Assembly (NCBI GenBank): GCA_021234155.1 | Contig: JAJEKV010000046.1 | Location: 6,951,012-7,015,011, forward strand | From: Isoetes taiwanensis | Taxonomy: Eukaryota; Streptophyta; Lycopodiopsida; Isoetales; Isoetaceae | Length of the DNA: 64,000 nt | Reading direction: 5' to 3' | Part shown: positions 13,030 to 62,429 of the stretch, piece after piece | How the letters are laid out: every line of letters begins with the position of its first letter | How positions within the stretch are numbered: position 1 is the stretch's first letter | The notes under the pieces: generated by a model | Seen by the model: only the letters and a program-made list of their open reading frames with translations | Database searches by the model: none | Told to the model about the DNA's origin: nothing | Translations under genes and position numbers: made by a program

Positions 13030-13553
13030 GCTTTGGATGTTATGAGTGAGAGAGAGAGGGAGGGAGGGAGGGAGGGAGGGAGGGAAGCGTTGGCCACATG
13101 CGAGCTAAAAGATCATGCGAGAGACGTTTTGAGTTAGAGGGATGCGAGAGTGTTAGGGGCGTTTCCGTTAATGAAACAATCGTTAAGAATAATGGGCCGT
13201 AAAAGTTTTTGGGGCAATTTTTGGACGTCGAAATTTTGGACCTTAACTCCGACCTATGTTCAAGGGTTGCGGGCTCCAAGAATCGAAGCTCCAAATTCTT
13301 CCCTCCTAGCCTCGCACTCGCGTCGATTGCCAATCCGGTAAGTACTTCTTGCATTTCTTTACTTGAGTTTAGAATGCTTTGGTAATAGCCACATTCTTAG
13401 CAACTTGTTGCTTGATAAATCGGGCTCAAATTGCCTCAAGAACATGAAAAAGGCTACCAGATCCTCTTTTCCAGATGCTAAAAAGCCTTTCGTTCCCCCT
13501 AGGACTGAGAAACTGGCTCCAAGAAGAATTAAGAGGATCATTGGATCAGTTTC
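13030..13553. other. Non-coding stretch with a (GGGA)n microsatellite
   Basis: A purine run at 13,046-13,086 passes from GA repeats to about seven GGGA units. The rest holds short ORFs on both strands that match nothing I know. Confidence 0.45.
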
Positions 13554-20877: not shown

Positions 20878-21220
<343 letters not shown>

Positions 21221-22480: not shown

Positions 22481-24247
<1,767 letters not shown>

Positions 24248-24360
24248 CTATACAACTGAGCGACCGCATTTCTTAATTCAAGAGGGAGAGTATTTCTACA
24301 TCATACCACATTGGCAGCGTCCATGAGGACATATGACGGAACCCTAGAGACTTGAACACG

Positions 24361-24790
24361 AGAGAAATGAAATGAAATGAAATTTGATTATTACATCTGT
24401 GAGGCCGCCAAGCTATAAGGCCTTCAACTTGTACATTCAACAATATAAAACAAATCATCTAATGCATCCTCTGATAGTAATGCATTAGACTCTTACCTCT
24501 AACTCATCTACCTTTTAAGGTTCTTAAAACATCGTCCCTACACTCTAAAATATCAATGATACGTCTCCAAATACGTGATCCTGGAAAAGCAAAAAAAGCC
24601 ATCGACGTGTCAGTATATATATCATACTTCTCTCGAATATCTCTGTAAGCATGGCAATGTAGAATTACATGTTCCTCATCTTTAAGTATCCATGCCTCAA
24701 ATATCTTACACAATCTAAGCCCATGAGGAATATCATTCCACCTGCCTACAGATGGCATGCTTATGCTTCCTGGAAATCCCCTCTGCCAAA
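24361..24790 (-). pseudogene. 5'-truncated satellite-tailed LINE copy
   Basis: An ATTTC pentamer tail (24,363-24,382 as GAAAT) and a terminus related to the one at 22,755 (GGCCTCACAGATGTAATAAT on the coding strand) close this fragment. It encodes only the C-terminal zinc-binding remnant: VGRWNDIPHGLRLCK, then KDEEHVILHCHAYRDI. Confidence 0.85.
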
Positions 24791-24839
24791 TACTTTGCCT
24801 CCTTCAATGTAGGATTAATATGGGTCTATAAAATCTGCA

Positions 24840-25240
24840 CCAGATCATCAAGCAGTTAATATATGCTGATGATGTGGACCTTCTAGCTTACACACCAGCA
24901 GACATGCAATGCCATCTCAATGCCCTGGACACATTCTACCAAGAGACTGATATGCGTGTCAACCTGGCCAAGACTAAGGTGGTCCTCATATCATCCTCAC
25001 GTCAGCCGAGGATCCCCTCCTTCAGTTATCGAGGGCAGAATGTGGAAGTGGCATCCACATACAAATATTTGGGAGTGGAGTTTCCTTCTATTATGCATTG
25101 GAATACATCTATACGGCTACGAGTGACGACGGGCTGGAAGGCACTATATGCAATGCAAAACAATAGTCATAGAGCAGAGTTGTATGATTGGGCCCATCAG
25201 TCGCACCTATTCAAGGTCTTAGTGGAGCCTGTCCTTTTTT
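24840..25240 (+). pseudogene. LINE reverse-transcriptase fragment (plus strand)
   Basis: The open frame has IYADDVDLLAYTPADMQ (catalytic loop), VNLAKTKVVLISS, YRGQNVEVASTYKYLGVEF and WKALYAMQNN. It belongs to the same lineage as the 22.7- and 25.3-kb copies but lies in the opposite orientation. It ends abruptly near 25,240, where a minus-strand copy begins, so a rearrangement or nested insertion joins them. Confidence 0.85.
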
Positions 25241-25264
25241 TATTGCTCCATCTCTTCATATCCT

Positions 25265-26746
25265 CTAAAGAACATTCATTTTGACCCATGTGCGGATGTC
25301 AACTTTATGCAAAGCTAAATCATGAATATTTATCCCCCATCGTGCCATCCACTGACTGGCATCAGCAAACCAGCCCTTAACCCATGTCTCCTCCAAAGTC
25401 AAGCGTGGTAAACTTTTTTTAGGCATAATATACAACACCTTATAGACATAATTAAGGAATCTGTAAAGCGCCTCTGCCTCCAATGTGAGCATCCCACATT
25501 TCGCTAACATCATATTATAGGGAGTTTGTATGTTTGTTCCAAGTTCAGACCGACAGAATTTCTTTTGAACTTTCTCAACTTTTTTTCAAGTCTCCAATGC
25601 CAATCCAGGACTCTATACTTCACATCTATACAAAACCATGGATTGGACCAGTGTTATGTAAAGCATTCTTTTCAAGCTAAAGTTCCATATCTCTGCTTTG
25701 GCACATCTACATTGCATTGCATACAGTGCTTTGAGGCTACCGTTTACATTTTGCTCCATTGCTTGGTTCAATTTGGAATCGTATCCACTAATATCCCAAG
25801 GCACTTGTAGCTATTGGTAATTTCTACAAGTTTATCTTGATAATAGAACTTTAAATGATCAATCTTGTGTGCCCCAAACACAATCACTTTGGTCTTACCC
25901 ATATTAACTTGCATGCCTTTTGCATCACAAAATAATGAAAGCGCACCCAAGTGCCGTTGTAACCCCTATATGCTCCTAGATAGCGATACCAGATCATCAG
26001 CATAGAAAAGTAGCATAAGGACATACCCATTTATAGGCATTCCATTTCCTCCATGGTCCCGCATCTAGCATTCAAGTTGGTCTATAAAAAGACCAAATAA
26101 TGTAGGCGATAGAGGACACCCATGTTTTACTCCCACATTGCTCTCCAATAAAGACATTGAACCAGTACCTTTTCATATAGCTTTCCAACTGCTTGTCTGT
26201 ATTCAACATGAATGTTTAAATCATTCATTCTTTCCCATAGATTTTTTCTGTTCACCATATCAAAAGCCTTGGAGAAGTCAACAAATACAGCATATAGGAG
26301 ATTCTTTTTCCCAACAACAGAATCTATCATTGCACGCATAGAGATCAAATGGTCAATAATGGACCTCTTGGGTCTGAACCTAGCTTGTCCCACTACTCTA
26401 GCATTATTATCCTCAGGCCACATGCTAATTTTTGAATCCATAATGACTGCAAAAGTTTAGCATATAACCTGCTAACCATGATCAAATGATAATTAGTTGG
26501 ATCCAATTCATCGTCTGCTTTGTGGAGTGGAACTACTCTGTTTATTTGTTATGCTTGTGGGAAGCCCACTCGTAGCACTGCATTAAATAATTTTAACAAG
26601 ATAGCAGCAATTCTATCACCCGCCCACTTGAACATTTCAGTTATAAGACCCTTCGCCTCAGCAGCTTTATTATTAGGCAACTTTTGTAAACCACAATGTA
26701 TATCCAAAGTGAATAAAAGATACTCTCCATCATACCCGCCATCCAT
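25265..26746 (-). pseudogene. LINE reverse-transcriptase pseudogene
   Basis: In order on the minus strand: the finger segment LPNNKAAEAKGLITEMFKWA (26,700), VGQARFRPKRSIIDHLISMR, palm motif A AVFVDFSKAFDMVNRKNLW (26,270), VNMGKTKVIVFG (25,900), NSYKCLGILVD, and LKALYAMQCRC. At least four frameshifts or stops separate these pieces, and the YADD loop survives near 26,000 in a disrupted frame. The endonuclease and the 3' tail are missing. Confidence 0.85.
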
Positions 26747-26920: not shown

Positions 26921-29075
26921 TTGCCAGGCGGCTGCTGTGCATACCGGCTAACCGGAAGTTTGGATGCATGGAGGCCATCGGCAAGGTTGTCAGGTGGGAA
27001 ACTGTTTCACTCTCAAATTGTTGGTTGTGGCCTTCAAAAGGACGTGGTTATGGGAAATGCACTCCTTAACATGTATGGAAAATGTGGAAGCTTCAAATAT
27101 GCAAGACGGATGTTTGAGATGATAGGTCATTTGCAAGATATTGTCTCCTAGAATTCTCTGCTTGCTCCATATTGTCGTCATGGATTTTTTGACGGGGCTC
27201 TTGATTTGTTCTTACATATGTCTCAAGAAGGAATTAAACCAAACAGAATCACTTTTATCGTTATTCCAAGCATTTGTTCTGGTCCAGAGGATCTTGCAGA
27301 TGGCAAAAAACTTCATGCTCACAGTATTACAAGTAAGTTTGAGAAAAATACTGTTGTAGGTAATGCATTCATCGATATGTATGGAAAGTGTGAGGCTGTG
27401 GATAATGCCTACAGATTGTTTAATACACTGCCACAGAAGAACATTGTTTCATGGAATGCCATAATCGCAGTATGTGCCCAGCATGAGAGCACCCTTCTCG
27501 GTGTTGTTGATGCGTGTTCTAGTCTTCCATATGGTGGTTTTCTTCATGCTTATATACTTTGCATCAGGGTGTCAGATGCTATGGTTGGCAACGCCCTTAT
27601 TGAAATGTATGCAAGGTGTGGAAGTTTGCATGATGCTCAGATAATATTCCGTAAAATACGGGAGCAAGGCACGGGCACATGCACGTACACGTGGAATGCC
27701 ATGATGGGTGCATATGCCCAAAGATGAAAAATGCAAAGAAGCTCTTAAGCTCTTTAATCGATGCAACAATGTGCTTGTGGTCCCGACCGTGCTACATTTC
27801 TTATCATGCTCGATGCATGTTGTAGTCCGTAATTTCTCCAAGAAGGTCGGTTACTTCATAAGCATGTCATTGACAATGGGTTTGAGTCGATATCATTCTT
27901 AGTAATACTATTATGAATATGTACGGAAAATGTGGAAGCATACAAAGTGCACGTGGTGTTTTTGACAAGCTTTACCAACGTGATTTGGTTTCCGGAATAC
28001 AATGTTTACGATATGCTCAACATAGTTGTTAGAAGCAATCTTATTGTTTAGGGACATGCATGAGCAAGTTGTTAAACCAAACAGATTACATTTACTAGCA
28101 TTTTCAATGCATTCTCAAATGCTTCAAAGATTAATGGATGGCGTGTTGTTCCATGCTAATTTTATAGGTAAGGAAAATGAGTACGATGTTGCCGCGGACA
28201 ATTGCTCTAGTCAATATGTACGATAAGTGTGGCGATCTATTGGAAGCCCAAAGCAGCTCTTTGATAAAATGCTTTTCAAGGATGTAGTATTGTGGACCTC
28301 AATGATTGCGGCATATGTTCAAGATGACAAGCCGATAGAAGCGCTTTTGAGCTCTTCCAACAACCGCAAAACAGAAGGTATGTTTCCGCACAAGATTACT
28401 TGTGTTAGTGCCTTGGATGCATGTGCGAACCTTGCTGCCCTGACAGAGGGCACCATCATCAGTGCCTATAACAGGAAGGTATGTTTCCAGACAAGATTAC
28501 TTGTGTTAGTGCCTTGGATGCATGTGCGAACCTTGCTGCCCTGACAGGGGGCACCATCATCAGTGCCTATATCACTGAGAATGGATTTGACTTTGATGTT
28601 TGTGGACACAGCCATTATCAACATGTATAGAAAATGTGGTCACCTTAACAGAGCACATAAGAAGTTTGATGAGATGCCCAAACGAAATCTGGTTACATGG
28701 AATGCCATGATTGCAGCTTATGCTCAACAGGGAGATGGTATTACGGCCCTCCAGATTTTCTTGAAAATGCAGGAGGAATGCATTAATTTAGATAGAGTTA
28801 CTTTCATCAATGTGTTGTTAGCTTGCAGCCATGCAGGGTTGGTTGATGATGGTCATTATTATTTCGAATTTATGAGGAACTGCCATTGGACTAGACTAGG
28901 TATGGAGCATTATGGTTGCATGATTGACCTACTTGCAAGAGCAGGCCATCTAAATGATGCAGAGGGGATGTTATGTAATATGTTTCTCTCTCCTAATGCT
29001 CTTGTGGTGATTATTGGTGAATATCAATTGATGCGGCAAATCAAATCTGTCGTAATGTGATTCAATTGAATGCAA
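26921..29075 (+). pseudogene. PLS-class pentatricopeptide-repeat pseudogene
   Basis: PPR proteins of this class are RNA-binding helical-repeat proteins of plastids and mitochondria, used in organelle RNA editing and processing. Repeated PPR signatures are clear: VVMGNALLNMYGKCGSFKYA, VVGNAFIDMYGKCEAVDNAY, NIVSWNAIIAVCAQ, MVGNALIEMYARCGSLHDA, KCGHLNRAHKKFDEMPKRNL, TWNAMIAAYAQQGDGITAL, then VTFINVLLACSHAGLVDDG and YGCMIDLLARAGHLNDAEGM of the last L2/S2-E1 region. The frame breaks at about 27,150, 27,727, 27,900 and repeatedly to 28,230, and a 101-bp duplication at 28,375-28,576 shifts it again. No E2/DYW domain and no clear transit peptide are found. At least 8 repeats are recognisable. The gene is dead. 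Confidence 0.92.
28375..28576. repeat. 101-bp tandem duplication inside the PPR pseudogene
   Basis: Copies begin at 28,375 and 28,476 (AAGGTATGTTTCC) and share GCCTTGGATGCATGTGCGAA and ACCATCATCAGTGCCTATA. Because 101 is not a multiple of three, the duplication shifts the frame. The copies differ at only a few sites, so it is recent relative to the decay around it. Confidence 0.92.
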
Positions 29076-39560: not shown

Positions 39561-39621
39561 AGACCACTTATTGTTTTGAATATGATTGGTCAATAAGTGA
39601 TGTCTCATTTTATGGTGAGGA

Positions 39622-39810
39622 AGGAAGGAAGGAAGCAAGGAAGGTATTTTTATCGTCCACGGAGACCAATCGGTCTATGGGACCCAATACAAAAGCGCAG
39701 CAAGCGGATTACTACCCGAATTAAAAAACCCCCACCCCGAAGGGTTTTCGAGGGAAAAACCGTGGCAGCAATCAGCCTGCTGACAAACTGTTCCAATAGG
39801 GTTGAGGACC
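39622..39810 (-). mobile_element. 3' end of a GC-rich satellite-tailed LINE
   Basis: GGAA tail (39,622-39,648), then the terminus TTTTTATCGTCCACGGAGAC. The next 140 bp align with 53,453-53,600 (GACCAATCGGTCTATGGGAC, TTTCGAGGGAAAAACCG). It is a 5'-truncated sister of the full-length element at 53,431-59,541. Confidence 0.88.
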
Positions 39811-46085: not shown

Positions 46086-46639
46086 TTATTATGTTAAATA
46101 ATGGGGAGTCCTAATAAAATTCTTATACAATTTACTGTCCAAACAGTCAATGTAAATGACTTTCAGTTACAATTTAGTTGCATGAGCCGACCACTCTTTG
46201 ACACATGACGTGTGGTTCCCTGGAATGTCAACTAACGTGTGTTGGCCAAAGTTTAAGGAGGGGTTCGGTCCTCTATCATGTGCTGAGATAAGCTCTAACT
46301 ACAACCTCCGCTACAAATTCGGTATCTTGTGCAAGGGGAAATGGTCAGTTGGTCTACACAGAATTAATGAGCATTTTCATAAATAAAAAAATAAAAAATG
46401 GAATATATGGAAGCCATAGTCTTAATGTCATCCATATGCAGGCATTACCGACTTAAGCAATTCCTGAACACTGCATGATCTATTCTAAATTAAATTATAT
46501 TCAAACCCTCAAAAGCATTACACCCACAAAGATAATGTAGTTTATACACAGATATTTATACATCTGCACTGCCAATAGCTTCATTCCTTCCATCGCATGC
46601 TCCCCTTAACGTGAAAGATCCAGGTCTACTGCATGGTGC
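46086..46639. other. Non-coding flank
   Basis: No gene. It was contiguous with the sequence at 61,350 before the L1 LINE inserted. Confidence 0.5.
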
Positions 46640-46652
46640 CACTTGCATAGTT
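46640..46652. repeat. Target-site duplication of the outer L1 LINE (left)
   Basis: CACTTGCATAGTT, identical to 61,337-61,349; its last two Ts merge with the poly(T). Confidence 0.88.
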
Positions 46653-46797
46653 TTTTTTTTTTTTTTTTGAAGAACTGTGCCATCAATATATTAAAAGAAT
46701 GGTAATGTTACAAAGCAAGTGAGGAGGAAGGAGAACTGCCCCAAAGAGACAGCGATACCTCGACACTCCACAACAAACTCACAGAAAAACTGCAACT

Positions 46798-49466
46798 CTA
46801 CTGCTGTACAAACCGACCATCACCATCTACAACACCCAAGAAGTCCCGCCAAATGGCAAACTTCCGCTCTACTACTCCCGGGAACACCAGAAAGCTTTGA
46901 AATAGCTTGTACCTGAGTCGAGGAATCGAGAGGGCCGCAGTCAGCTGAATCCCCCGAAAAGATCCACGACTCACGCCGCCTTCCAATCAACCACACCAAC
47001 CAAGCCATGCACGATGCAAGGCTTGCCGCTTTAAAGAGCCGCCAAGCACCGTGATACACATGAAGCAAAGAATCGTTGGCTAGTCAATCTCACTCAAAAC
47101 AGAGCCCTAACCCAATCCCGGGCAGCCCGCAAGTGAGGGCATAAAACCGCACAATGCTCCACAGCCTCAATGATGAAGGCCACAACAAGGGCGTAGAGGG
47201 GCTCACACCTGCCTAAACCGACTCACAAGGGCATTCACCACCTCGATACAGGCGGTGCACCACCGCCATAGAAGCACCCTAACCTTCGGTGGGGAAGTGA
47301 GCTCCATGTCCACGTCCAAACCGAAGCCATCGAGAACCCTAAGCCGCAGAGACCACTTGCTCAAGAGGGCGGTGTGTCATGAATAGCCAAAGACCCCGGA
47401 AGAAGACCGCACAAAGCAAGAAGACACAACATCCGGATGAACCTTCCAAACCCGCACCACCACATCATCCCGAGGGACTATAGGTATGTGTAGCGGAATA
47501 CTCCCCGCCACGTGCTCCCGTGATAGCCCTACACGCCCCAGCGAAAAGCGAGCTCGAAAGAACTCCCACGGCTAGATGACCACCCCAATACCAATCCTCC
47601 AAGGTGAGCACAAAGAGCTTCGCCTCCAACGGGCCTCGGCCCGAGCATGTACAAAGTGGGGCCCAAGGGCAAGTGCGCAGGGGTAGAGGAACCCACAAGA
47701 AAGGAGAAGAGTGGTGATACACCCAGGCATAATCTAGCCGAAGAGCACACGCACATGATCCCAAGCCCGCAACACTCCCTGTGAAAAAGGGGATGCATGT
47801 GGGAAAGGCCGGAGACCATACAACAAAGCTGCCTGTGGCAACTCCACATGCACGCGACTTTCCCAAACGCCACACAATGGCGAAGAGATCGCAACAACAA
47901 CAAGCAAGCCGCACTGGAGAAGATGCTCCATCCTGCAGAATGCTCCAAACAAACTTGGAGACCAACACCTTACTATGCAGTGCCAAATCCAGAATGGCCA
48001 AGCCCCCATCCTCCCGGGGGCGGAGACACTTCCACCAAGCCACTTTAACAACCGCCCCTTCATCATCCCCCACACAAAATTTTGAACAATCTTATCCAAA
48101 GCCTCAGATCTTACCCTTAGGAGCTAGCATCGCAGATGTCAGATACACATGAGTGCTACAAAGTAATGACTTGGCAATAGTGATCCTACCTGCCATGGAC
48201 AACTTGCTACCCTTCCACCAATTGAGGTGTTTCTGCAACCCCTGCAAAATCTCATCCCACACCCTCCCCATGGAAACATCCCCTCCAAAGGGAATACCCA
48301 AAGAGCTTTAGTACACACATTACCCGGAAGCACCTTCCAAGGGAATAGAGCCAAACAAGGGGAGGCGGAGTCACCGGGCCCATAATGCGAAGCACTTACC
48401 CCAATTCGTAAGAATGCCCGAGGCCAAGGAGAAAGTATCCAACAAACCCTTCACATTCCGCAAATTCCTCTCTTCTGCCACCAAGAAGAGGAAAGTATCA
48501 TCGGCAAACTGGTTAATAATCTGCTGGCTACCATCCTGCATCCGAAGCCCATCCACCACTCCCTCCTCCACTGCAGCAAAAACAATCGAGACAAAGGCCT
48601 CCGCCACAATCGTAAACAAAAACGGGCGCCAAAGGGCACCCCCCGACGCACCCCTCTCGCCTAAGGAGAAAAAGGCGAGGGGTTCACCCCGCACACCACC
48701 GTAGCCCGTGGCCGACCTATGCGGCTTCATGATCGCCTCTCAGAAAGTGTGAACCACAGCCCAACGCTAACATCATGGCAGACAAGAACTCCCAACGGAC
48801 TTTATCGTAAGCTTTGGCAAAGTCAAGCTTAAGATAGACAATGCCTTGACCTGTTCTTCTGGCCCAATAAAGGCCCTCATAAGCTGCGGCAACATTAGTC
48901 AAAATGTTCCTCCCGTGGACAAACCCATCGCACCTTACTAATGGAAGAAGTCAACACCGGCTTCAACTTCTCTGCCAGGGCTTTCGCAATAATCTTATAC
49001 ACAGAGGACAACAAGGAGATAGGCCTCCAGTCATTAATAGTAGAAGGCTGCTTAACCTTAGGAATCAAGGAAATGCATGCGGTATTCAAGATCCTATCCA
49101 TTTGAGAAGACTGCAGCAACTCAAGATACACCTTGTACACCGACTCACCAGCCCACTCCCAATAAGTCTGAAAGAACTCCACAGGGATGCCATCCAGCCC
49201 AGGACATTTATCCTTGGCCATGCACATACATGCCGCAGCTAAATCCTCTCTGGAGAGCTCCTGCTCCAAGCTCACACGCTGGTGAGGCAGAATAGATGGC
49301 TTAACAGCCCCCAAAACAAGCTCTTGCATCTCCTGCTCATAGGGAAGAGGGCGCTGTGCGAAAAACCCTGAGAAATGGGCATGCACATACCTCTGCAAAT
49401 CAGCGGGATCCTCCAAAGTCCGGCCATCAGGCAAAGCAAGGGACGCCATAGATGCTGCATATCGCC
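46798..49466 (-). pseudogene. Plant L1 LINE reverse transcriptase pseudogene
   Basis: Minus-strand order: ASMASLALPDGRTLEDP (start of RT module, 49,450), CPGLDGIPVEFFQTYWEWA, ACISLIPKVKQPSTINDWRP, LLSSVYKIIAKALAEKLKPV, motif A VYLKLDFAKAYDKVRWEFL (48,830), catalytic FADDTFLFLVAEE (48,490), WKGSKLSMAGRITIAKSLLC (48,200), then a decayed zinc-binding end. Frames shift near 48,900, 48,720, 48,370 and 48,100. The sequence is more GC-rich than the hAT-like element it hosts. Confidence 0.9.
49455..49466. repeat. Direct repeat flanking the hAT-like element (left)
   Basis: CTGCATATCGCC, identical to 61,298-61,309. hAT target duplications are normally 8 bp; here 12 bp match. Confidence 0.8.
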
Positions 49467-49764
49467 ATGGAATAATTTAATGGCTAAGGTTAGCCAAATT
49501 GCTAAATTTTGGGTTTTTTTTTTCCCAAAAAACGGCTAAACTAAATGAGAAAAATGGGAAAAAAAAAATTTAGCCTAATTTTTTCCCACCAATAGTCCAA
49601 CCTAGGGCAGAATCGCCAAGAGCCCGCCGCCGGAGTAGCTCCAACGAGTCTCGAATCGCTTAGCCTAAGAAGCCAAGGAGCTTGAGAATTTGGTGGATTA
49701 GCTAAGTGGCATCTACCATAGAAAGTATGAATCTTGCAAAATCGCCATGTAGGCTACTGATTTT

Positions 49765-50295
49765 TTATTCCTTAATCCCGTGTATTTGCAATTCCAGGAT
49801 CATTTTTCAAGCATTCAAGAAGGATTCGGCCACAAAACTTCAAGGACGTTTCTCTGCAAATAGGATTTTCGTTGATTTCTCATTTCCAGAAAGATCTGAC
49901 CGATTCTCTTGCTAGTATTAGGTATCTATTTTATCTTCTACAATTATTTTTAGCTTAAATCGTGTCTGTAGCTTCATATCTATTATTTTTTAGGTTGGTT
50001 ATCTGCTTGCATCTGGAGGCACTCATAGATGCGTTTATTTTCCTAATCCCGTGTATTTGCAATTCCAGGCTCATTTTTTAAGCATCCAAGGAGGATTCGG
50101 CCACAAAACTTCAACGCCCTTTCTCTGCAAATACGATTTCAGTTGATTTCTCATTTCCAGAAAGATCTGATTCGTCTGCTCTAGTATCAGGTATTTTTAT
50201 CTCAAATCTTGTTTGTAGCTTAATATCTGTTATTTTTTAGCTTAATTATCTGCTTGCATCTGGAAGGACTCATAGATCCGTCTATCTAATCTAGG
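49765..50295. repeat. 271-bp tandem duplication in the hAT 5' region
   Basis: TTAATCCCGTGTATTTGCAA at 49,772 and CTAATCCCGTGTATTTGCAA at 50,043 start two copies. Each contains GGATTCGGCCACAAAACTTC and a splice-donor-like AG|GTAT after the purine-rich AGAAAGATCTGA. They look like duplicated untranslated exons or promoter segments of the transposase gene. Confidence 0.85.
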
Positions 50296-50425
50296 GCTTA
50301 ATGAGTTTTGTGGAAAGGGACCTTGAGAAGAGTTATCTAGTGTGACATTTTCCCGTCATTCTTAGGGCCAGGTTTCACTCATCTCCATCATTTGAGAAGC
50401 ACAGAATAAGGGCTCTCCATTGGCA

Positions 50426-51164
50426 CTACAGGTTGTGCTGGTTCTCCATTGGCACTGCAGTGGACAATTCGTCATTGTGCCTTTTGAGAATGCATTCCAG
50501 CACATGAGGCTGGCATAGAAAAGAAGGGTTATTCATAGCCCGCTCATTCATGGCGGGGGCTAAGCTTTGAGCAATCCACAAGCTTCCATGTCCCTCCTGC
50601 ACTTCTTCGTAAGAGAAGTGTTGGCCACAATCTAGCATCTTTTCCACGTTGAGAATATAGCATGTCATGGCACTTCCTAACACCTAGTGGGAAAGAATCA
50701 GCAAGTGCAACAAATGTTTCTACTGTAATTGACGCACTTTCAAAGATAGCCCCATAGGCATCCATCCACCTCCCCTCACAATCTCCTCCATTTGAGAATC
50801 TTCCCTCGCACCAAAGGTTCACAAAATGTCCCACTAGTGACAATAAAGTCTCTCGAACTAAAGTTATAATTCTGAATGTAGTCATCCAACTCATGCATTC
50901 TAGAACCTATTCTCTCGCTCCAATACCAACTTCGTGAGGCCTTTTCCTCATCTTTGTCATGTCGCCATCTCCGGGATCGCATTTAATGCCAATGTGTTCC
51001 AACATGGTGCACCAATATTGAGATGAAAGCTCCAACCATGGCCTCTTCTCAGGTACTGATTTAACCAGCATTCTAGTGAACAAAATTACAAGCCAGCATC
51101 TGGCCCTATCATTCTTACATTCATCATTTATCATATGATCCATTGGCACTGCAGGTTGCACCAT
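50426..51164 (-). pseudogene. Unrecognised coding-like sequence inside the hAT element
   Basis: Overlapping minus-strand reading frames (51,164-50,907, 50,982-50,776, 50,894-50,544, 50,683-50,426) read like one broken protein. Segments include MLEHIGIKCDPGDGDMTKM, MHELDDYIQNYNFSSRDF, ITVETFVALADSFPLGVR and SLWIAQSLAPAMNERA. I do not recognise the family. It may be a captured host gene fragment or a second transposon gene. It opposes the transposase in orientation. The short phrase CCATTGGCACTGCAG occurs here three times (near 50,417, 50,441 and 51,143). Confidence 0.35.
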
Positions 51165-52017
51165 TAACTTTGAGGGAAGAACAGCCTACGTTTACAATGC
51201 CAGTTCATAATTGAAAATAATCTCCTACCTGTGGAATAAAAAATAGATTGGTAATAAGACCAAATTTACAACATTATGAAACCTGCAAGGAACCAAATTT
51301 AATTCTGTTTCTGACCTCAGTTCCTCCGACACGGTTTATTTTATCACGGTGTTTTTATTTTAATTTATTATGTTGTTTGCAGATGCGCAAGGTGTTGTTG
51401 GATTTGTTCAAGCTTTGCCTAGATGCCAAGACTATGATTAATACTAACAAGGGAAAAATTATATATGTTATTAAATGATTGGGTATGCAGAATAAGTTTG
51501 ATTATTGTGTAATTTGGTAAACATAGCTACAACATAGCCACAACATTCCACACACGAAAATAAAAACATAAGAAACATCCAATTTAGTGTAGACATAAGA
51601 AACATCCAATTTAATGTACCTAACAATGCCTAAACATATTCACAATTCTAACGCTAGACATACACTTGTGTAATTTGGCAAAAAAAAACATAAGTACATT
51701 TAATTTGGTATTTAAAAAAACATAAGAAACATCCATATCCATTTGTGTAACTAACAATGGATAGTTATATTTATAATTGCATACATTTTAATATAATTTA
51801 ACAAAGACATATTTTAAACCTAATAGATATTAGGACCTTTCCCCTTTTCCTCTTTATCTTGTACTAGGACCTCACTCTTCTTCCTCCAAATAAGAATTCC
51901 ACAACTTTGAACTAGTCATAAGCACGTTGAGTTATTTTCATTTCATCTATTTTTCATTTTTATTGATAATGCGATCATTCTTGAAAAGCTTTATAATACC
52001 TTCACACGGACATGCAG
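51165..52017. other. AT-rich leader of the hAT transposase gene
   Basis: Short repeated phrases (ACATAAGAAACATCCAATTTA at 51,567-51,612 and again near 51,720) and no ORF of note. It probably holds 5' introns of the transposase gene; the coding start follows a CATGCAG acceptor at 52,017. Confidence 0.45.
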
Positions 52018-53430
52018 ATGAAGCGTCAAACGGGCCTTAAGCAGTTCTTGTCTAAGAGGGTAGATTCGGTTGGTACCTCGACCTCTTCTAGCACTCGAGT
52101 TCCTCAAGAATCATTAAGCAAGGATAGTGCGACTGGTCATATTCCTTCTGAAAATGTGGAAACTGAAGTTCCTCCATCGTCATCTAGTCAGAACGAGCCA
52201 GTGCAATAAGATGGAGGTGGCATTGGTACTTCGCAATCGAGCAAGAAAAGGAAGAAGAGGAAGAGTGAGTATGTCATTGGCCGTGCATTTAAAAAAGAGT
52301 GGTTGGCTGAATTTGCAGAGATAGAGTCAGTTATAAGAGACGGAAAAGAGCATATTATGTGCAAAGTTTGCACATGGGCTAACAAGAGAGAGCAGCATCA
52401 TGGTAAAAAGAAGGTGATGAAGGAAGACGCCAATGGTAAATCTTATGAGATTGTTGAGTTTCTTCCTGATAATAAGCACCAAATAATTTTTGAAAAAGTA
52501 TGAGATGCACATGTTGCAAGTTAAACAGGTTGAGGAAAAATCTACACACTTCCATGTGATGTTTTCTGAGGCAGATAAGAAAGAGTTTAAAGTCAAAAGC
52601 ATTCAAATGAAAGCTATCTTTTTCTTGCTTAAGCGTGGGAGACCTATGACACAATATCCGGAAATGAGAGAGTTTTGTCTTTCTAATGAGTTAGCATCAT
52701 GTCCATTGTATCATTGGTCCATTCCAGCAGGTTGGGAGTTTGCTACTTTTATGAATGAAGCCTTGAAGATTGACCTTCGTACCATGATACAAAAATCAGA
52801 ATTTTTGTCATTGTCTTTTGATGAAGTTACTGCTATTGATAACACTAATTGGGCTGCCATGCATTTATATAATGTAGTGGATTATCAACATAAATCCCAC
52901 TTTCTTGGCATCTTCAAGTTGAGTTTGAGTTCTAATGCTGAGACACTCTATAATGTCATTGTAGCAGACATGAGCGCAAGAGAGTGTGCAAACAAGCTTA
53001 TTTGTTTTGGTGCTGATGGCGCATCCGTGATGCAAGGCAAGAGATCTGGATTAGGGGTTAGAATTCAAAATGAATTAGCTCCTTACATGCAAGTGATACA
53101 TTGTATGAGCCATCGTACCAATTTGGCGTATAAGGTACTTTCTGATTTTTCTGTTATCAACAAAGTAGAATTACTTGTACAGAAGGCATACAAATTCTTC
53201 TCCAAAAGTCCCCAAAGATGTGCAGCATTCAAATCTTTAGCAGAAGGGTTAACAGATGGTAAGAAGATTTTGAAAAATGTCACAACAAGGTGGATATCTT
53301 TATATGGTCCTGTGAAGAGATTGTGTGAAGAATATGCATCATTGGTTGCATGCACAGACGAACTTGCAAGTAGTGATGATGGAGCAACCATGAATAGTGC
53401 AACTGAGCTTTACAATCTTTTGGTTGATGG
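52018..53430 (+). pseudogene. hAT-like (DUF4371/ZNF862-type) transposase, 5' part
   Basis: Reading from ATG 52,018: a Ser-rich N-terminus, a basic KKRKKRK stretch, a zinc-finger-like segment (EWLAEFAEIES, CKVCTWANKREQH), then the catalytic half with LSLSFDEVTAIDNTNW and CFGADGASVMQGKRSGLGV, whose aspartates fit the hAT core. HCMSHRTNLAYKVL and VTTRWISLYGPVKRL follow. Defects: TAA at 52,207-52,209 where a Gln codon would fit, and a 1-nt frameshift near 52,495-52,505. The frame from 52,490 then stays open for over 310 codons until the LINE insertion at 53,431 after LLVDG. The product would bind the element ends and cut and paste it. Confidence 0.88.
53426..53430. repeat. Target-site duplication of the nested GC-rich LINE (left)
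   Basis: GATGG, matching 59,542-59,546. Removing one copy and the LINE restores an open transposase frame (LLVDG|NIFIPEY). Confidence 0.8.
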
Positions 53431-53663
53431 AAGGAAGGAAGGAAGGAAGGTACTTTTATCGTCCACGGAGACCAATCGGTCTATGGGACCCAATACAAAA
53501 ACGCAAAGCGGATTGGATTATCGCCCGTGATTAAAAACCCCACCGGCGGGGTTTCGAGGGAAAAACCGGGGCGTTAATCACCTGCCGACAAACCGTGCTA
53601 ATCATATAAAATGCGTAAAACATCCCAATATATACAGGCCATGCACCACCCCGTAGTGCCTAG

Positions 53664-56600
53664 TCACGGACAGCCAGCGGGGCAAATGTGACCTCGCAGG
53701 TCCAATACCTCCCCGATGTATGACCCTGTGGCACGATTGACGGTGTGTTCATCAAAGAAATGCAAGGGCACGTCCCGCCGCATTAAGGGAGCGATCCGCC
53801 CGGACCGACCAACACCGGGCAACTCGAAAGTGTGAGACTCATCCTCAATGGCACCCGCTTGACAAAGACCGACAGAGCCTGCCCCGGCGGGGCTCCCCAA
53901 TCCACCGCCTCGCCTTGATGCGAAGATGGTGGGCACCTCGCGCGATGGAGGCAATGAGTCCGCGCTTTTTTTAGGGGCACCGGGAACGCAGTAGAGCCAG
54001 GGGCCCCGCTAACACGCGGTTGATGTGCTCCTTTGTAATGGGCCATTTTGACCTGCTCTAGAGCAATGGGGTCCCGTGAGCTTGCCAAGGAAACAAGCAT
54101 CTAGGTACTCCCCCAGTCGCCACGATCGGCCGCCGCGCCTAACCAGACGATTCGTGTTCTCGCACGCTTCCATCCGGCGAACCACCGATCTCTCTTACCC
54201 CTCCAACAGGCCCTAAGCCGCTGGACTCATGGCCACAAGTAAGCCAAAGCCAAGCCGGGGCCGAGCATCACCCATAGTAACCACTTTCGAAAAATAGACG
54301 ATGTGTCTATCAAGGGCTGCCAATAAGGCGGCAAGAATCCAGCTTTCTAGCTGGCAGACCGATAGGGGACTGAAGGTTTCACCCAAGCGCCCGTGCCAAA
54401 ATGCCTTCGCACCTGCTCCAAGTCATTCCGTGTCGCCAAAGAGACGATCAACGCCCCAAACCTCGACCCGCATGAAGGACGGTGCTCGACCGGTGCCCGG
54501 AATGATGTGACCGATGGCCCCAATCATATAGCTCGCCGGGTGATCGTTGTTCTCAGATGGCATAAAGCGCTTTCCCACCAATCACCCGCCGGATAGACGC
54601 CTCCCAACAGAGCGAGGAGGGGAACTCCACCCCTAGGTACTTGTAGGTGGGCGTGACGTCCACAAAATGTCCCCCGATATGTGAGTGCAGGGAGGCATGG
54701 GGTGACGGAAGAGGATATGAGAACCACCCCGGTCTTGGCCGATTGACGCGCATGTCAGAGCCCCGACAAAATGTGTCTAGGGCATCCGTGTGAGACCGCA
54801 TAGCCTCGGTGGGGGCCAGGCCAACATCGTCCGCGATAGATGAGCCGGGCGGATGACCTGGTGCAAAAGTCGTATGCCATCCCCCCATGCTCGCGAAGCG
54901 GGGCTCTAACCCGACAATGTAGAGGCCAAAAGTGTTGGCGAGGGGGGCAACCCCCCGACCCCGATACTACTGGTGAATGCTTGGCCTGGCTTACCGTGAT
55001 CCCCGCCAAAACAACTCTCATACAACCTCAGATATGGCATTCTCGCGACAAAAGCAGCGGAGCCCCGGTTGACGCAGATCTAGCCTACGCCTTTTTCGGG
55101 GGACCAGATCAAAAGCCTTTGCGAAGTCCACAAAGCAAGAATACAAGTCCAAACCGATGATTCCGGCCGCCTTCAATCGCCCGCAGCAAAAATATATGGT
55201 CAATCGTTGAGTGGCGGGGGTCGAAAGCCTCGCCTGTGTGAGGGCTCGCGACATCCGCCGCCAGCCCAGCCGGTCAACTGCTTTGCTTTCGAGAATGCCG
55301 AACAACGGTTTGGCAAATAATCGAACCGACCATGATCGTCCGGTAATTGGCCTGACAAAGGTGGGTCGCCTTGTGAATGGGAACAACCCCTCGCTAGGGT
55401 CCATTGTCGGGGAAACCCTCCCCGCAATGCTCGTTGAACAGGGGTAGTGAGGGACCGGCACAAGCGGCCGCCCCGCCCACTTGAGTAACTCTACCGCATA
55501 CCATCGAGGTCACCGCCTTCCCATTAGCTAGCCGCTGCGTGTGCCCTCCTCAACATCCTCGCCCACGAAACCAATGGGGGCCATCCCGTGGGGGTATGGG
55601 CGCACGCTGCCCCCGGGCGAGTCATAGAGCCGCTGCAAGTACCGCTCCCACCGCCCGGGTGTGATGTCCCCCGTAGGCCGGGCTGGCCTTCGGCACTCAA
55701 GGCCAAAAGGTTCGAGGATGAGTGTCCAAAGCAGCCGTAACATCTCCCCGATGCTTGGCAAAGGTACCGCGCCTTTGTGTCCTTCGGATGGGCGCTGCGT
55801 CGTGTGGTGGCTCGCAAGCGTACTGATCCGTAATGTGATCGGAGCTGCCGCTATGCTTTTTACACCGTCGATCAAACCATCGTTACGCTGGAATGTTGCT
55901 GACCCCGAAAGCGGCGACGCTGGGGGTCCCGCAAAGCACCTGTCCGGCCGCATCCCGTAATAGCGGTCACCGGTTCTGCTCGCCGCTTCTAGTGTGGAGG
56001 TCTGCATTACCGGAGGGCGCCCATGAGCATCTTGCAGAAGTCCTCTCCCGCTCATAATCGAAGTCTCAACCGAGGACTCCGCGAGGGCCGGGTATAGTGG
56101 GGTTCCCCGCTCGCCAAACCAGGTCCAAATAAAGTGGGAGGTGATCCGAAAGTCGACCTCCTCATCCCGACCGCCTGCCCACCCGAAACGACCGATGAGA
56201 TGCATATCTTGGCGCAACTACAAGCACATAGTCCACCACACTAGACCCTCCCCCGATTGTCCCGTCGGCATGTGCACTTTGCGGTGAATCGGGCCACCGC
56301 GGAAAGGCCATTGCAAATTATCAAGTCAAAAATGCCACATAGCAGAGCAACCGGTCGCCAAAAGCGAAGTGACCTGGCTGCCATCCCACCTCGCTGGGCG
56401 CTACTTCAAGGGGCGTAGGCCGCAGGACATCGCCGTCCGAGGGGGTCAAGTCGCATGGGCTGCTCTACCCCGTCCGGCATTGAAATCTCCAAGAAGGACG
56501 ACCTTACCCAATCGCCGATGCCGCCAGATGTCATCATATAGATCGACATACGGGTCCATCCTATCCGCGATCGGGGTGGTCGCGATAGAAGGTGCCGCTC

Positions 56601-57100
56601 AAGCGAGGGAAATAACAAAGCGCCGTAAAAAGAGGGTTGCCACCGGTATTATGCAATACGCGAACCCGGCACCGGCGAAATCCGGCTCGCCTTTTCCGGA
56701 GGGTAAACCGAATGTGCCAAGGTTGTCCGTAGTAGCAAGCCACTCCCCATGACCCCGCTGTCCCCGTACGTATTGAAGACCGAGAAATGTTGGTAACCCG
56801 CAAATCGTAGCTCGTGCTCCAAAGATGCTCCCATGTCTCCATGAGGAAGATGAGATCCATACCGGCCGCCACGGAGTTCGACCGCCTCCTTCTCGCCAAG
56901 GGAAGCCTCGACAATTCCATGAGACCACCCGGGAGGCACAATTCCTATTTGTCGCCAGGGATGGTATGCGCAGTACTCGAGTCAGGGGAGGACTCGGAAG
57001 CAGAGGGCCGAAAGGAGAAGTAGATGGAGCGGAGGCAAAGATGTGGTCGAGGGCGTGGGCCGCGAGGGAGCGTGAGTAGGAGCAGGAGAAGGGGGGCCGG
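53664..57100 (-). pseudogene. LINE ORF2 (endonuclease-reverse transcriptase), heavily broken
   Basis: The endonuclease starts with RVVSWNCRGFPWREG (about 56,940) and continues in shifted frames (HGDMGASLEHELRFAGYQHF, NTYGDSGVMGSGLLLR). The reverse transcriptase has LDLYSCFVDFAKAFDLVPRK as motif A (about 55,120), a degenerate catalytic loop (IADDVGLAP instead of YADD, 54,840), LDTFCRGSDMRVN and PTYKYLGVEFPSSLCWE. The C-terminal part keeps LCQAGAIEDESHTF and HFFDEHTVNRATGSYIGEV, homologous to DEEHLILLC of the 22.7-kb copy. At least ten frame changes occur, so it is inactive. Confidence 0.82.
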
Positions 57101-57299
57101 GTAGTAGAAGCGAGGTGGCCGCTGCGGCGGTGGGGGTTGGGGCTGCGGGGTTCCGCAGCAGAGCGTGCCGTTTTAAAATGTGCAATCTCGCGGCACCCCC
57201 TGTTGGCGAATGCCTCGACCCCCCAAGCTCCCCGCCTCGTGCCTCCCGCTGCACGGGTGTGAGGTCCCGGCCCACGCATGGGATGTCCCTTCAACATCC

Positions 57300-58714
57300 G
57301 CCCCTCGGCGCAATATGGCATCACGCACTGCATCCGCAACCGTGAATATGACAATGCGGTCCGCGGCGGGCCCGAAGCCCCATGCCGCTGCCGAAAATGT
57401 GAACTGCCCGGAATGTCATCCGTCGAGAATGTGTGTTCGGATGTGGTGGGCGAACTCTCCCCTGGCCGCTACGCATGCCTCGAACTACCGTTAGATTGGC
57501 TCTCTCTCCGCCAAGGCCTCCCTCGGAGTTCTCAAAAGGGTCCAAGGTGGGCGAAGGCCTGGTCTTTGGGGGGGTGGTGGTGGTGGCTGGGATGGCGTGG
57601 AGTGACTGGAGTGTGGCTGGGATGGCGTGGAGTGGCTGGAGAGCGGGGCAGCAGTGCGGGGGCGTGGCTGCCGGTGTGGAGGCTGTGGCGGGATAGCGGT
57701 CTGAGCGCGTTCGGCCTGTGGAAGGGGAGGGAGGCTCTTGCGCAGCCTCGGCTGCCGCTTGGCCATCTCCCCCGCCTCGCGACCGCGGTGACTATGAACC
57801 TCGGTAGGGAGACCCCGGCTCGCTCAGGGATCTGCCCGCAACCCCCCGAGCTCCGTGCTCAGTAGCGAGAGCGTTGCTCGGCTCCCGCAAAGACACGCGC
57901 CGAGGGCCGGGTTTGCCGTTCCGATCTTTACTCGAAGATCCCCGGCCGCGGTTCGTCAGTTCGCAAGAGCAGCCTGTGCTCCCCGTGCCATGGTGGTGGC
58001 TGCCTCTACCTCTGACTGAAGCCGAGACAGCGTGACCATCGTCTCCTGCATTGCGCGCTCCCTCTCCTGTGTCATGGTGTCCAGAGTGATGAACACAGAG
58101 TCTAGGCGGGCCCGCATGTCAGCGACCTCCTGCCTGGCCTGCTGCCGCTCGAAGTGTGCAAGGCCAAGGCCATCTTCCACATGCAGCGTGCGGGTCTCCA
58201 AGCCTGTGATACGGTTCTTCTCGACCCCGATTTGCCTTTTGAGCACATGGGATGCCGAGGACTCCATCTCCACTGCCATGCCAGCCAGCGGCACCGGTTA
58301 GCCTCAATAATGAAAGCACCGTTAGCCTCCATTCCCCGCTTTGACGTGGCTCCAATTCTCTGCCGAGGAAGGAGTTCCTATGTGGTCTCGAGCAATTAAT
58401 CCCCTCCCTCGGCCGGGCTGGCTCTGAGGGGGGGTTTAGCCTTAGCCCGAGCCTCCTTCTTCATGGAGGATGACTCTCCCCTGTCCATGATGGCTGATCG
58501 GGACCGTTTGTGCGGCGGGCCCTCGCCTTGGGTTTCCCAGGCCGGCCCATCTTCTGTGGCCATGACTCCCAAAGTTTGAGGGGTCTCTGGCTGCGGAAAG
58601 GGTGCCTAGAATTGAATTTGGGGACTCAAGAACGCGCGCCCCCACAGCGCCCAGCTCCCTCTCTCTAGCGCCCTCACTCCCCTTGCATAGACCCCCTTGA
58701 TTTGCCCTCTGCAT
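57300..58714 (-). pseudogene. LINE ORF1-like coiled-coil and Pro-rich region
   Basis: Minus-strand frames 58,294-57,956 encode a clear coiled coil (HFERQQARQEVADMRARLDS, QERERAMQETMVTLSRLQSE). A Pro/Ser-rich tract (57,766-57,491) and a segment PAADRIVIFTVADAVRDAIL follow, just before the endonuclease. Coiled-coil ORF1 proteins bind LINE RNA. The frames are broken and no zinc knuckle is certain. Confidence 0.6.
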
Positions 58715-59541
58715 GCATAAAACATCTTGAAAGTCTTAAATAACAAACATAAACAACTCAAAGACACAAGAACCTATGGTGCAATGCTAGACAATGACAA
58801 CAAAGAAAACAACATAACATCAATAGCAAAGAACATAACCAAAGTACCCAAACCATCATAAACAAACTCCGGGACAATGGGTAGCTCAGCCAAATTTACA
58901 TACAGGCCCCCCCTAGTGATAACGCCACCAGCCTTTTACATTCCAAGCCCTGTAGCGAGGTGGTGGGGTGAACCTCGTATGCGCATACCCTCTCAGCCCA
59001 CGTCTGCCCCTGGAAGGCCGTCTTAGAGGAATCAAGGGCCATATAGGCGTAATCAGAGGTCGGAATAAGCATTCTGCAATACTGGCATGCAACCCAACTG
59101 CCTCAGAATGGGCCAAAACTCAGTTGAATTAGGCCGAAATTGATCCAGGAGAGAGCAATTTCAGAAATCATAGGCTGTGGCAATAAGTTTTACCTGCAAC
59201 AAAGCCATCACATCTGGAGCTAGAACTCCCGGAAATACTTGAAAACGACCTGGAACAGGTCGAAATTGGATGAGAAGGGCCGATTTGGGTCTAAGAGGGC
59301 CGAATTTGGAAGTAGAGAGAGAGATTTTAGCTTTCAGAGATGGTTACAGAAGCTTGCTTGGTAAAATTTTAGAGCAGAAAACTGTCTTCAAACTGCCCTG
59401 GAACTGTCTGGAATTCCCTGGAACACAGAGCCAGGAGGAAATCAGAAGATTTGAGGGATCAAGAAGCCCAATTCATTATTTGCATTATTTGCATTGGAAC
59501 CTTTGCTTCATAAACTTCATTATTTGATATCAATTTCACAG

Positions 59542-60805
59542 GATGGTAACATCTTCATACCCGAGTATAATATTGTAAGAAAAGGAATGCAGTTTGAGAT
59601 TGAAAATTTATTTATTGATGATACATTGGATGGGAAGAGTTGCTTCCAACGCTACAAGGAGTTCACTTATTGGAGAAAACTTGTACAAATTGGGTCAATC
59701 GAAAGTTTTCTTGCGTACAATTACAATGGAAAGCTAAGTGTTCATGCTAAAGGCAAGTACATGGAATTAACCTTAAAGAAGCCACGGGGGAGAAACAATC
59801 GTCTTGTTAAATCTGATTTTTTGATGGAGGATTTCGGGAACGTAGTTGACAAGGTGAAAGCTCAAATGTTAGAGGTACAAAATTCTTCTCATCATGACGT
59901 TAAAATCTCTTCTTCTTCTTCTTCTTCTTCTCATCATGATTAGGTTCTTGATTTTTTCTGATTTTTTCTGATTTTTTCTGATTTTTTCAGATTTTTTCAG
60001 ATTTTTCTAATTTGCGGGTTTTGTTTTCCTAGTTTTTCTCAAAAATCAGATTCTTGTGATAATATCAAGTGTGCAATTCAACTAGATTTTGATTTCTTCC
60101 ATTGATATGCAGGCTGCAAATGCTTTAGCAGATGAGCTTCGATCTCGTTTTCCACCAGATGATGTTTTGGACGCCATAGGCATTGTTTTCCCACACACAT
60201 GGAGTCATGCAAACTCAAGTGCAAGTATTCATAAGTCTTTTCAAGCAAAATCAACGGTAATAGAAAAGTATTTTTGTTGTGACAAAATTTTTGTTGATGG
60301 CCGCATTAATGGGCTATTGGATTATGATAAGCTGAAAGCACAAGCACCTCTTTTTGGTGATACAATGTACAAGCAATTTGCTCAACTTGAGAAGCCAACA
60401 GAGTTTGGAGCTGTGACTCGTCTATGGCAAAAGCTTGCATCTAATAGCTTATTACGCGTGGCAATCTCTGAGTACTTTAGACTCGCAGAGCTTTGTCTTT
60501 GCATGGTTTTGGGAAGTGTTCAAGATGAGAGGTGCTTCTCCACTATGAGTTTTGTGAAGAACAAGCTTAGAAATAGGCTTGATGATAATCTGGACGCTAC
60601 ATTGAGATTGTATGCATGTGATTATGATCTATATACTTTTCCATATGAAAGGGTATTCGAACTTTGGAATGATGCTTGCAAACGCAGATCTGTAAGTAGA
60701 ACATATATGGTGGATCATGAGAGTACTTCGAGGATGCTTTCTGAAGTGCAGACAGATGGTGGTGACAAAGAAGAGAATACCAGCACCGTATTTTTTATTC
60801 GTTGA
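59542..60805 (+). pseudogene. hAT-like transposase, 3' part
   Basis: The frame continues directly from 53,430 after removal of the LINE: DGNIFIPEYNIVRKGMQFEI up to KAQMLE at about 59,873. There GAG|GTACAA is a plausible splice donor. The next exon starts at 60,111 (GATATGCAG|GCTGCAAAT) and reads AANALADELRSRFPPDD to the C-terminal hAT dimerisation domain (GSVQDERCFSTMSFVKNKLR, DDNLDATLRLYACDYDL) and the stop at 60,803-60,805. No stop interrupts this part. The candidate intron 59,874-60,110 holds a TTC run (59,910-59,930) and a TGATTTTTTC minisatellite (59,947-60,005). Confidence 0.85.
59947..60010. repeat. 12-bp minisatellite in the transposase intron
   Basis: Five to six units of GATTTTTTCTG or GATTTTTTCAG in tandem. 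Confidence 0.9.
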
Positions 60806-61241
60806 TGGTAAGTCTTCATGCAATTCTGTAAGTGATGATTATATTTTTTTGTTCATCGTGTTTTTTTGATGTGTTTAGGTTTTATCGAATGCAGGTGAAG
60901 CACATATCTCCTTTACATGTGTTCTATGATTATAACTATATCATAAACATGTTTTAGCTATCATTATAATTGCGCATTTATACTATTGGTCGTGATTTTC
61001 TTCTGTAGTACCTCATATTAATGATAAACCCATCATCTTCGTCCAAAAGCTTCGACTTTTGTTTAAATTATCATAGTCAATTTTGGCTAATATTTGCCTT
61101 TACAAATTGTCCAAGTGTAGCCAAATGATAGAAAGTTTTGGGCAAAAAAAATATGAAATTTAGCCAAACGAAAGAATTCATGATTGAGAAAAATCGCAGA
61201 ATTTAGCCAAGTGTTAGAAACTTCAGGTATTGATTTGAAGC
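60806..61241. other. 3' subterminal region of the hAT element
   Basis: AT-rich, with repeated words TTTGGCTAA, TAGCCAAAT, TTTAGCCAAAC and TTTAGCCAAG between 61,085 and 61,215, matching the words at the 5' end. No gene. Confidence 0.6.
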
Positions 61242-61297
61242 AAATTTAGCTAAAGTTATCCTGGCTACACTAAAATATAGGTGTAGTAATTTATTCC

Positions 61298-61309
61298 CTG
61301 CATATCGCC
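61298..61309. repeat. Direct repeat flanking the hAT-like element (right)
   Basis: CTGCATATCGCC, the partner of 49,455-49,466. Confidence 0.8.
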
Positions 61310-61336
61310 GCTACCTAGTTGCTCTGAAGAACACCG

Positions 61337-61349
61337 CACTTGCATAGTT
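61337..61349. repeat. Target-site duplication of the outer L1 LINE (right)
   Basis: CACTTGCATAGTT, the partner of 46,640-46,652. Confidence 0.88.
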
Positions 61350-62429
61350 ATCACAATGGTGCGAAAATGTGTACGCATCAACAAGTCTTCCAAGGGGCAA
61401 CCCATTGATGCGTTAGCATCTTGTTGGTTCATAATTTTACGATTGTTCATTATGTTAGGAATAACTTACATAAGGTAAGAGCTTGGCAACCCAAGGAGAA
61501 GCATGCGGAGGAAGCCATTTCCGGATATAATCTGGGCCTAAAATAGGTGACAGTCACAGAATGTGCTCCCGTCCCACCCTTTTGAAATAATCGGATAATC
61601 CGAGCCCTTTCTAACATCTCTTTTTGACATAAAATCTTTATTGCAATCACCAATTAAATGAGCAAGAGATGCAGGAATTTAGTACTGCAATATTTACACA
61701 GGATTATAGGGAGCTCATGTCCTTGCAAGCGTTTCAAGGTTGAATCTGAAACGCATAAGGCCACAGGGGCAAATAGAAAGATAGTCGATTCGACATGTCA
61801 TATTTTGGTTCAAATTTAGCACCATAAAACAGTTTCGACGCCTCCATGTTCATCCATCTTTTCATCAAAAAAAGAAAAACTAGAACGATGGGCGTGCTCT
61901 CAAGACCTCGATTTTGGCTACAGTTTTCACTACAACTTCTACCACAAAAATATGAGAGGTTCAACAATAAATAGGACCCATCTGATTGCTTCCATACTTT
62001 GAGATAAACATATTTTGGTAGAATAGAACCTTGGCTGGGCTTATCTACTCCTTTGTTTTACTTTGAGCTTGTATATGATTTTCAAAGATTGCTTGCCATT
62101 TTATGCCAAAATCTAAAATGTTATTGACTGGTGTATAATCCTTGGGGCAATAAAATTACCAGATACATCTTTGAAACGGACCAGGTGAGGATCCAAACTT
62201 TTGCCCTTGATCAACGTCGTCTCCACAGAGATTTCTTGAAAGCAAGCAATTTAGATTGTTTGCTTTTGCGACTGAAAGGAAAGACCCATGTGGAAAATGG
62301 CAGGCTTTAAAAAATGCCAATATGAGATGGCCGCCAACGTAAAATATTATCTCTCATATACAGAGGGTAGCGCACTCATACTCTTCTTCAGAATGTAATG
62401 AAACAGGAAGACAGTGAGCATCAAAAGGC
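61350..62429. other. Non-coding stretch
   Basis: Nothing recognised; short ORFs on the minus strand match no family I know. GGGGCAACCC at 61,396-61,405 recalls the hairpin word at 26,787 and 40,705, without its partner. Confidence 0.4.

Follow-up and report, generated by a model that had tools for sequence, protein, structure and literature searches.

Three nested transposable elements in Isoetes taiwanensis and the composite junction of the innermost insertion

When transposable elements are found inside one another, which elements are involved, in what order did they arrive, and what did each insertion leave at its junctions? These questions are raised by a 64-kb stretch of the genome of the lycophyte Isoetes taiwanensis (C1052:6951012-7015011, hereafter the window). 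A sequence-only reading of this stretch had recognized an L1-type long interspersed nuclear element (LINE) hosting a hAT-like element, which in turn hosts a GC-rich LINE, each framed by a target-site duplication. We compared the locus with other copies in the same genome (1,658,258,908 bases in 1110 contigs searched), whose assembly is described in PMC8566536 as 1658.30 Mb in 204 scaffolds and 909 contigs and combines Nanopore, Illumina and Bionano data. The three nested elements are an L1-like LINE, then a hAT-like element inside it, then a GC-rich LINE innermost. The nesting itself proves this order, and other genomic copies, which provide unoccupied paralogous sites at all three levels, bear it out. 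Taken as a whole, the locus very probably records three successive insertions, the third of which left no target-site duplication and has a composite, partly inverted 5' side.

The outermost element lies on the minus strand, as indicated by the T run of its poly(A) tail (46653-46668), which comes after the left copy of the repeat CACTTGCATAGTT (46640-46652). Its 3' part, including a putative reverse-transcriptase fragment, spans 46653-49457 and has 39 other copies scored at 96-98% identity for the stretch 48950-49454 (40 of 1289 candidates scored). Its 5' end (61309-61336), which abuts the right copy of CACTTGCATAGTT (61337-61349), is truncated: 23 of 24 paralogs run past the point where the window copy stops, according to a fuzzy word test. 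Both a poly(A) tail and a target-site duplication are thus present, as expected of an L1-type LINE. At the protein level, the putative reverse transcriptase has a weak RVT_1 match (E 0.001, 19.2 bits, under the cut-off of 29.6) and resembles a LINE at 9-12 kb of the window whose own RVT_1 match passes the cut-off; the L1 assignment is made on a truncated, broken copy. On either side lies host repeat DNA (46320-46639 on the left and, at query positions 334-409 of the joined-flank search, 61350-61425 on the right). When these flanks were joined around a single CACTTGCATAGTT, four other places in the genome matched across the joint without a break, over about 409 nt at 92-97% identity, and 33 further, shorter matches also spanned it (40 of 522 candidates scored). 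The letters of the four unoccupied sites contain one CACTTGCATAGTT and no L1, so that the 13-bp duplication proposed for this element holds.

Within the L1-like LINE, the hAT-like element extends from 49466 to 61300 on the plus strand and measures about 5.8 kb once its own insert is subtracted. Its left part (49466-53430) comprises the terminus CATGGAATAATTTA, a leader and the 5' part of the transposase gene; its right part (59476-61300), which starts with one extra T at 59476, contains the remaining transposase sequence and the terminus TAATTTATTCCCTG. Seven close paralogs align over portions of the element, and its left end recurs in the locus L064, one of those read for the right terminus. 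That second copy, of which both ends are seen, is framed by its own paired 8-bp duplication, ATAGCGCA; for another copy, on C1053, neither the left end nor an 8-bp duplication was found in the stretch examined. The right terminus is exact in 19 of 24 other loci read, where it is followed by 18 different 8-mers, and the terminal inverted repeats, CATGGAATAATTTA and CAGGGAATAAATTA, match by eye at 12 of 14 positions. None of the 24 L1 paralog loci read, drawn from the same L1 search, carries the hAT element. The duplicated word CATATCGC (49458-49465 and 61301-61308) is found exactly at the unoccupied site in 16 of these 24 paralogs, while the other eight are at most one edit from ATATCGCC; the indel-rich look of several of these eight may be assembly noise. 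Excision of the element at this point yields the unoccupied L1 sequence, and the joined flanks reproduce the L1 phrase announced for them, which by eye differs from the L1 paralogs by point changes alone, including CAG to TAG.

Every word named in the sequence-only reading does sit at its given coordinates. The plus strand of the window has CACTTGCATAGTT at no positions other than 46640 and 61337; the 12-bp CTGCATATCGCC is confined to 49455 and 61298, and the core of this word, CATATCGC, to 49458 and 61301. The repeats CACTTGCATAGTT and CTGCATATCGCC are far beyond chance. The hAT duplication is nevertheless the 8 bp of CATATCGC and not the 12 bp first proposed. The longer word exceeds the duplication by four bases: three are the final bases of the element at its right end, matched on the left flank by chance, and the fourth lies on the opposite side.

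Two side observations concern the hAT-like element itself. Its leader includes an imperfect direct duplication of about 270 bp (49763-50285), and by eye the window transposase shows one stop, one frame shift and a pair of short in-frame gaps relative to that of the paralog L002 (52200-53430), differences that would probably make it inactive even apart from the LINE that interrupts it. Searches with the transposase against NCBIfam and solved structures gave nothing useful, and a piece of it had no match in viral contigs.

The third level required revision in its details. The GC-rich LINE had been bounded by a 5-bp duplication, GATGG, at 53426 and 59542, and this is where other copies decided the matter. 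Seven hAT paralogs were read across the site (the best of 43 matches obtained with the query 52600-53420, 40 of 118 candidates scored). All seven show an unbroken GATGG-AGAAACCATATTTGCATTG...CAG-GATGG of the same length, with uninterrupted coding sequence; the first word (53426-53430, codons of VDG) is followed by AGAAACCATATTTGC in each, and the second (59542-59546, codons of SQDGNIF) comes 73 nt after the first. L002 is in frame through the site, with 24 residues between VDG and DGN. The right side of the window, moreover, retains the native transposase stretch from TATTTGC on. Since all seven paralogs have both words and the window keeps the end of the native stretch between them, GATGG is native at both places. 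A repeat of this kind is not beyond chance: the window has many GATGG words, and of 247 five-base words taken from the 250 bp around the left junction, 60 recur in the 250 bp around the right one.

It is therefore extremely unlikely that the GC-rich LINE generated a GATGG duplication whose excision restores the phrase LLVDGNIFIPEY. The idea had in its favor the presence of the word at both positions and an open joined frame, and joining the flanks does reproduce LLVDGNIFIPEY; this phrase, however, is found in none of the seven paralogs, which have an extra stretch between the two words. Nor can the insert reach 59541, the right boundary formerly given to it, because the native stretch kept in the window places its end at 59475. 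Junctions carried by other copies as fixed internal sequence, the observation that would speak against nesting, were accordingly encountered for GATGG and not at the L1 or hAT levels. Another reading would make the gap a native GT-AG intron at 53450-59541 (AAG|GTACTT ... TTTCACAG|GAT, phase 0), enlarged by a LINE. Splice-like letters and a phase-0 frame on either side are indeed present, but the paralogs have coding sequence there, in frame through the site in L002 and of equal length in all seven, and AAG|GTACTT belongs to a LINE terminus that is found at unrelated sites. This paralogous coding sequence led us to discard the intron, which we regard as very improbable.

The third inserted block is thus 53431-59475. 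Its left limit is set by 24 paralogs of the GC-rich LINE sharing the same terminus and a GGAA/AAGG run before their flanks diverge, and its right limit by a repeat copy elsewhere (L084) whose match ends at 59475. Compared with the seven hAT paralogs, no duplication flanks the block. Instead, 5-9 nt of the hAT target are missing (GAAAC at minimum, AGAAACCAT at maximum, according to the assignment of shared bases), and one extra T stands at 59476.

Most of the block is the LINE itself, on the minus strand. A simple-repeat tail, (TTCC)n in the sense of the LINE, occupies 53431-53450, and the body (53451-58639) runs from the 3' end to just upstream of the start of the first open reading frame (ORF1). 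In all 24 paralogs read (L010-L033), by eye, a simple run lies beside the same LINE terminus and is followed by differing flanks; such a fixed terminus and simple tail in differing surroundings are what is expected of a LINE, an element without long terminal repeats (LTRs). The body is further supported by the family found for 58300-58639, at 90-95% identity, and by translated similarity to two window pieces with RVT_1 matches (E 1.9e-7 for 24835-25284 and E 1.8e-17 for 23384-24247). A short second copy of the 3' end, 84% identical to 53426-53602 and with the same GGAA-type tail, is present at 39620-39797.

Beyond 58639 the block changes in nature. A search with 58300-58705 (40 of 1009 candidates scored) returned 39 other LINE copies, and among the matches listed the main match always stops at or before 58639. 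The next part of the block is segment a (58636-58707, plus strand), an inverted piece of the 5' region of the same LINE: in the one copy read there, L086, its counterpart lies on the opposite strand, 430 nt further upstream of the main LINE match, and is 100% identical over 72 nt. The listed matches place all or part of 58636-58705 near 14 of the LINE copies, in every one of the 14 on the opposite strand and roughly 0.3-0.45 kb upstream of the main match. At the inversion joint (58636-58639), 4 nt belong to both alignments; L086 differs at one of them, leaving an exact overlap of 1 nt. The inverted 5' piece that twin priming leads one to expect is thus present. Earlier placements of the break, with 58706-59475 as the LINE 5' leader or with an inversion near 59006-59025, were dropped once the LINE break was placed at 58639.

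The remainder of the block consists of DNA derived from other repeats. Segment b (58708-59006, plus strand) has no match in L086 and is 90% identical to a further locus, L085; segment c (59005-59475, plus strand), which forms the right end of the block, is 96% identical to L084 over 59125-59475 and, on the opposite strand, 85.5% identical to L085 over 59005-59308. The 40 matches scored of 1860 candidates for the query 58700-59470 divide into 33 for segment b, 6 for segment c and the window itself, and no scored match besides the window covers both. By eye, each of the joints a/b, b/c and c/target has an exact overlap of 2 nt. Among the matches listed, six loci have b and c within 2 kb of each other. 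In five of these the two are on opposite strands (C941, C1034, C1019, C1030 and C912, the last being L085, with 1.3 kb between them); in the sixth, C1059, they share a strand, and this locus also gives the best match, 99%, to 59005-59140. As a side observation, relatives of segment c (59100-59475) recur on the same strand at intervals of 3.1-4.5 kb on C1076, C996, C1067 (four times), C1065, C1042, C1093, C985 and C1027, a pattern resembling tandem arrays or paired terminal repeats; on C1019 the spacing is 2.4 kb.

How could such a junction arise? In the sequence of events that we infer, a 5'-truncated, poly(A)-tailed L1-like LINE would first have entered the host repeat by target-primed reverse transcription, duplicating CACTTGCATAGTT, and the hAT-like element would then have transposed into it, duplicating the 8 bp of CATATCGC. 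The GC-rich LINE with its (TTCC)n tail would have entered the hAT transposase gene just past the first native GATGG codons, with no target-site duplication and 5-9 nt of target lost. Reverse transcription would have started at the tail and stopped a short way upstream of ORF1, while the other side of the break would have been joined, in a manner resembling twin priming, to the inverted 72-nt piece of the LINE 5' region and to some 770 nt from other repeats. Segments b and c would have joined the 5' side in the course of the insertion or immediately afterwards, through either template switching or priming on a second RNA. More specifically, and tentatively, the second cut target end may have primed DNA synthesis on an unrelated repeat transcript (c, b), before a switch to the 5' region of the LINE RNA. 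If true, a single insertion would have been built from two or more RNAs by a lycophyte LINE without a poly(A) tail. We describe this third event as working like twin priming, and do not class it as canonical, because the flanking target-site duplication expected of a twin-primed insertion is replaced by the 5-9 nt target loss.

Two other origins of the 5' side deserve consideration. Segments b and c (58708-59475) could be a separate fourth insertion, or an earlier insert beside which the LINE landed: they match other repeats, none of the 33 b matches coincides with the 39 LINE copies among the matches listed, and of the six loci listing both within 2 kb, five have them on opposite strands. As no trace of b or c is present to the left of the LINE, none of the seven hAT paralogs read carries either at the site, and no duplication surrounds them, we hold this to be rather unlikely. 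Alternatively, without any twin priming, the inverted 72 nt together with b and c might be filler that was copied in while the 5' side was repaired by end joining, and the several short pieces, exact overlaps of 1-2 nt and small target loss are all as in error-prone end joining. Against this, the inverted piece derives from the 5' region of this very LINE and has the order and orientation that twin priming predicts; we consider filler possible, yet doubtful.

Several observations weigh against the account of three successive insertions ending in a twin-priming-like event. Target-site duplications are the usual outcome of twin priming, which moreover does not alone account for b and c, and the exact overlaps at the joints are just 1-2 nt. 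The best scored relative of the GC-rich LINE is 89% identical (40 of 3751 candidates scored; up to 94% without gaps), which is unexpected for a recent copy; the family is diverse. Its frames are broken, and assembly error may contribute to the breaks and to the divergence, the source assembly being Nanopore-based. Neither its three read-through frames nor three single pieces gave any Pfam match, a reverse-transcriptase profile included. The transposase pieces tested, from the window and L002, likewise match no Pfam model above cut-off: the hAT dimerization region, PF05699, is weak and below its curated cut-off in both (E 0.036 and 0.033), and the element is assigned as putatively hAT from its ends and its duplication.

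Substitution counts fit the proposed order but do not tell the hAT level from the GC-rich LINE level. Private substitutions, present in the window copy and absent from nearly all its paralogs, were tallied at conserved positions: there are 14 in 1587 for the L1, 3/925, 9/1327 and 3/472 for three stretches of the hAT element (15/2724 together) and 1/1526 for the LINE 3' end. Under a strict criterion, in which the substitution is absent from every paralog, the full sets give 8/1587 for the L1 (24 paralogs), which is no higher than the 12/2252 of the hAT element (3/925 and 9/1327, 7 paralogs), and 0/1526 for the LINE (24 paralogs). When seven paralogs were drawn 300 times, the strict mean became 1.18% for the L1 (0.76-1.91) and 0.42% for the LINE (0-0.88), beside 0.53% for the hAT element (12/2252). 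With equal numbers of paralogs, the L1 value relative to the other two elements thus accords with the nest, but the hAT element is not separated from the LINE, whose range of 0-0.88% includes it. CpG ratios (0.58 for the L1, 0.48 and 0.62 for the hAT element, 0.86 for the LINE) were left out of the dating because base composition differs.

The rest of the window contains further repeats and coding pieces. Perfect 137-bp inverted repeats (8227-8363 and 12894-13030) flank another LINE (about 8364-12893), which has RVT_1 above and zf-RVT below cut-off and a T run abutting the left 137-bp arm. LINE pieces akin to the GC-rich LINE occupy 22571-26600, with reverse-transcriptase matches on the minus (23384-24247) and plus (24835-25284) strands. 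An open frame resembling a DDE_1 transposase lies at 3014-3925 on the minus strand, a perfect GA dinucleotide run of 107 units at 20880-21093, and pentatricopeptide-repeat coding pieces at 27152-29060, with a 101-bp tandem duplication at 28370-28571. Scans of the window for tRNAs and Rfam families returned no match.

Nested transposons are in themselves ordinary, and the interest of this locus, which is modest, resides in its corrected composite junction: a well-bounded LINE insertion in a plant in which target bases were lost and the 5' end is composite and partly inverted. The case also illustrates that coincidence can produce a plausible target-site duplication as well as an open joined frame, and that copies from the same genome decide. 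A literature search restricted to titles and the openings of abstracts found no paper on LINE integration in lycophytes. As in other nested plant transposable elements, elements lie within elements and the order follows from nesting and target-site duplications; nothing differs in principle, the combination here being a LINE in a hAT element in a LINE. LTR elements within LTR elements are the commoner nesting in plant genomes. With the hAT superfamily, the middle element shares an 8-bp duplication and short inverted ends starting with CA(G/T)GG, and it has a weak match to the dimerization region; it differs in that the tested transposase pieces fall below every Pfam cut-off. Twin priming of primate L1 is expected to leave two opposite-oriented pieces of one LINE and an internal deletion (PMC2837659), both of which are seen in the GC-rich LINE, whereas the missing target-site duplication, the extra non-LINE DNA at the 5' side, the (TTCC)n in place of a poly(A) tail and the lycophyte host set it apart. 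Finally, 5'-truncated L1 copies of primates are reported to show target-site deletions and short duplications, and accidental matches can cover true duplications (PMC2912911); the GC-rich LINE has in common with them the target loss and chance matches that hide the true junction, which nested insertions bring to light.

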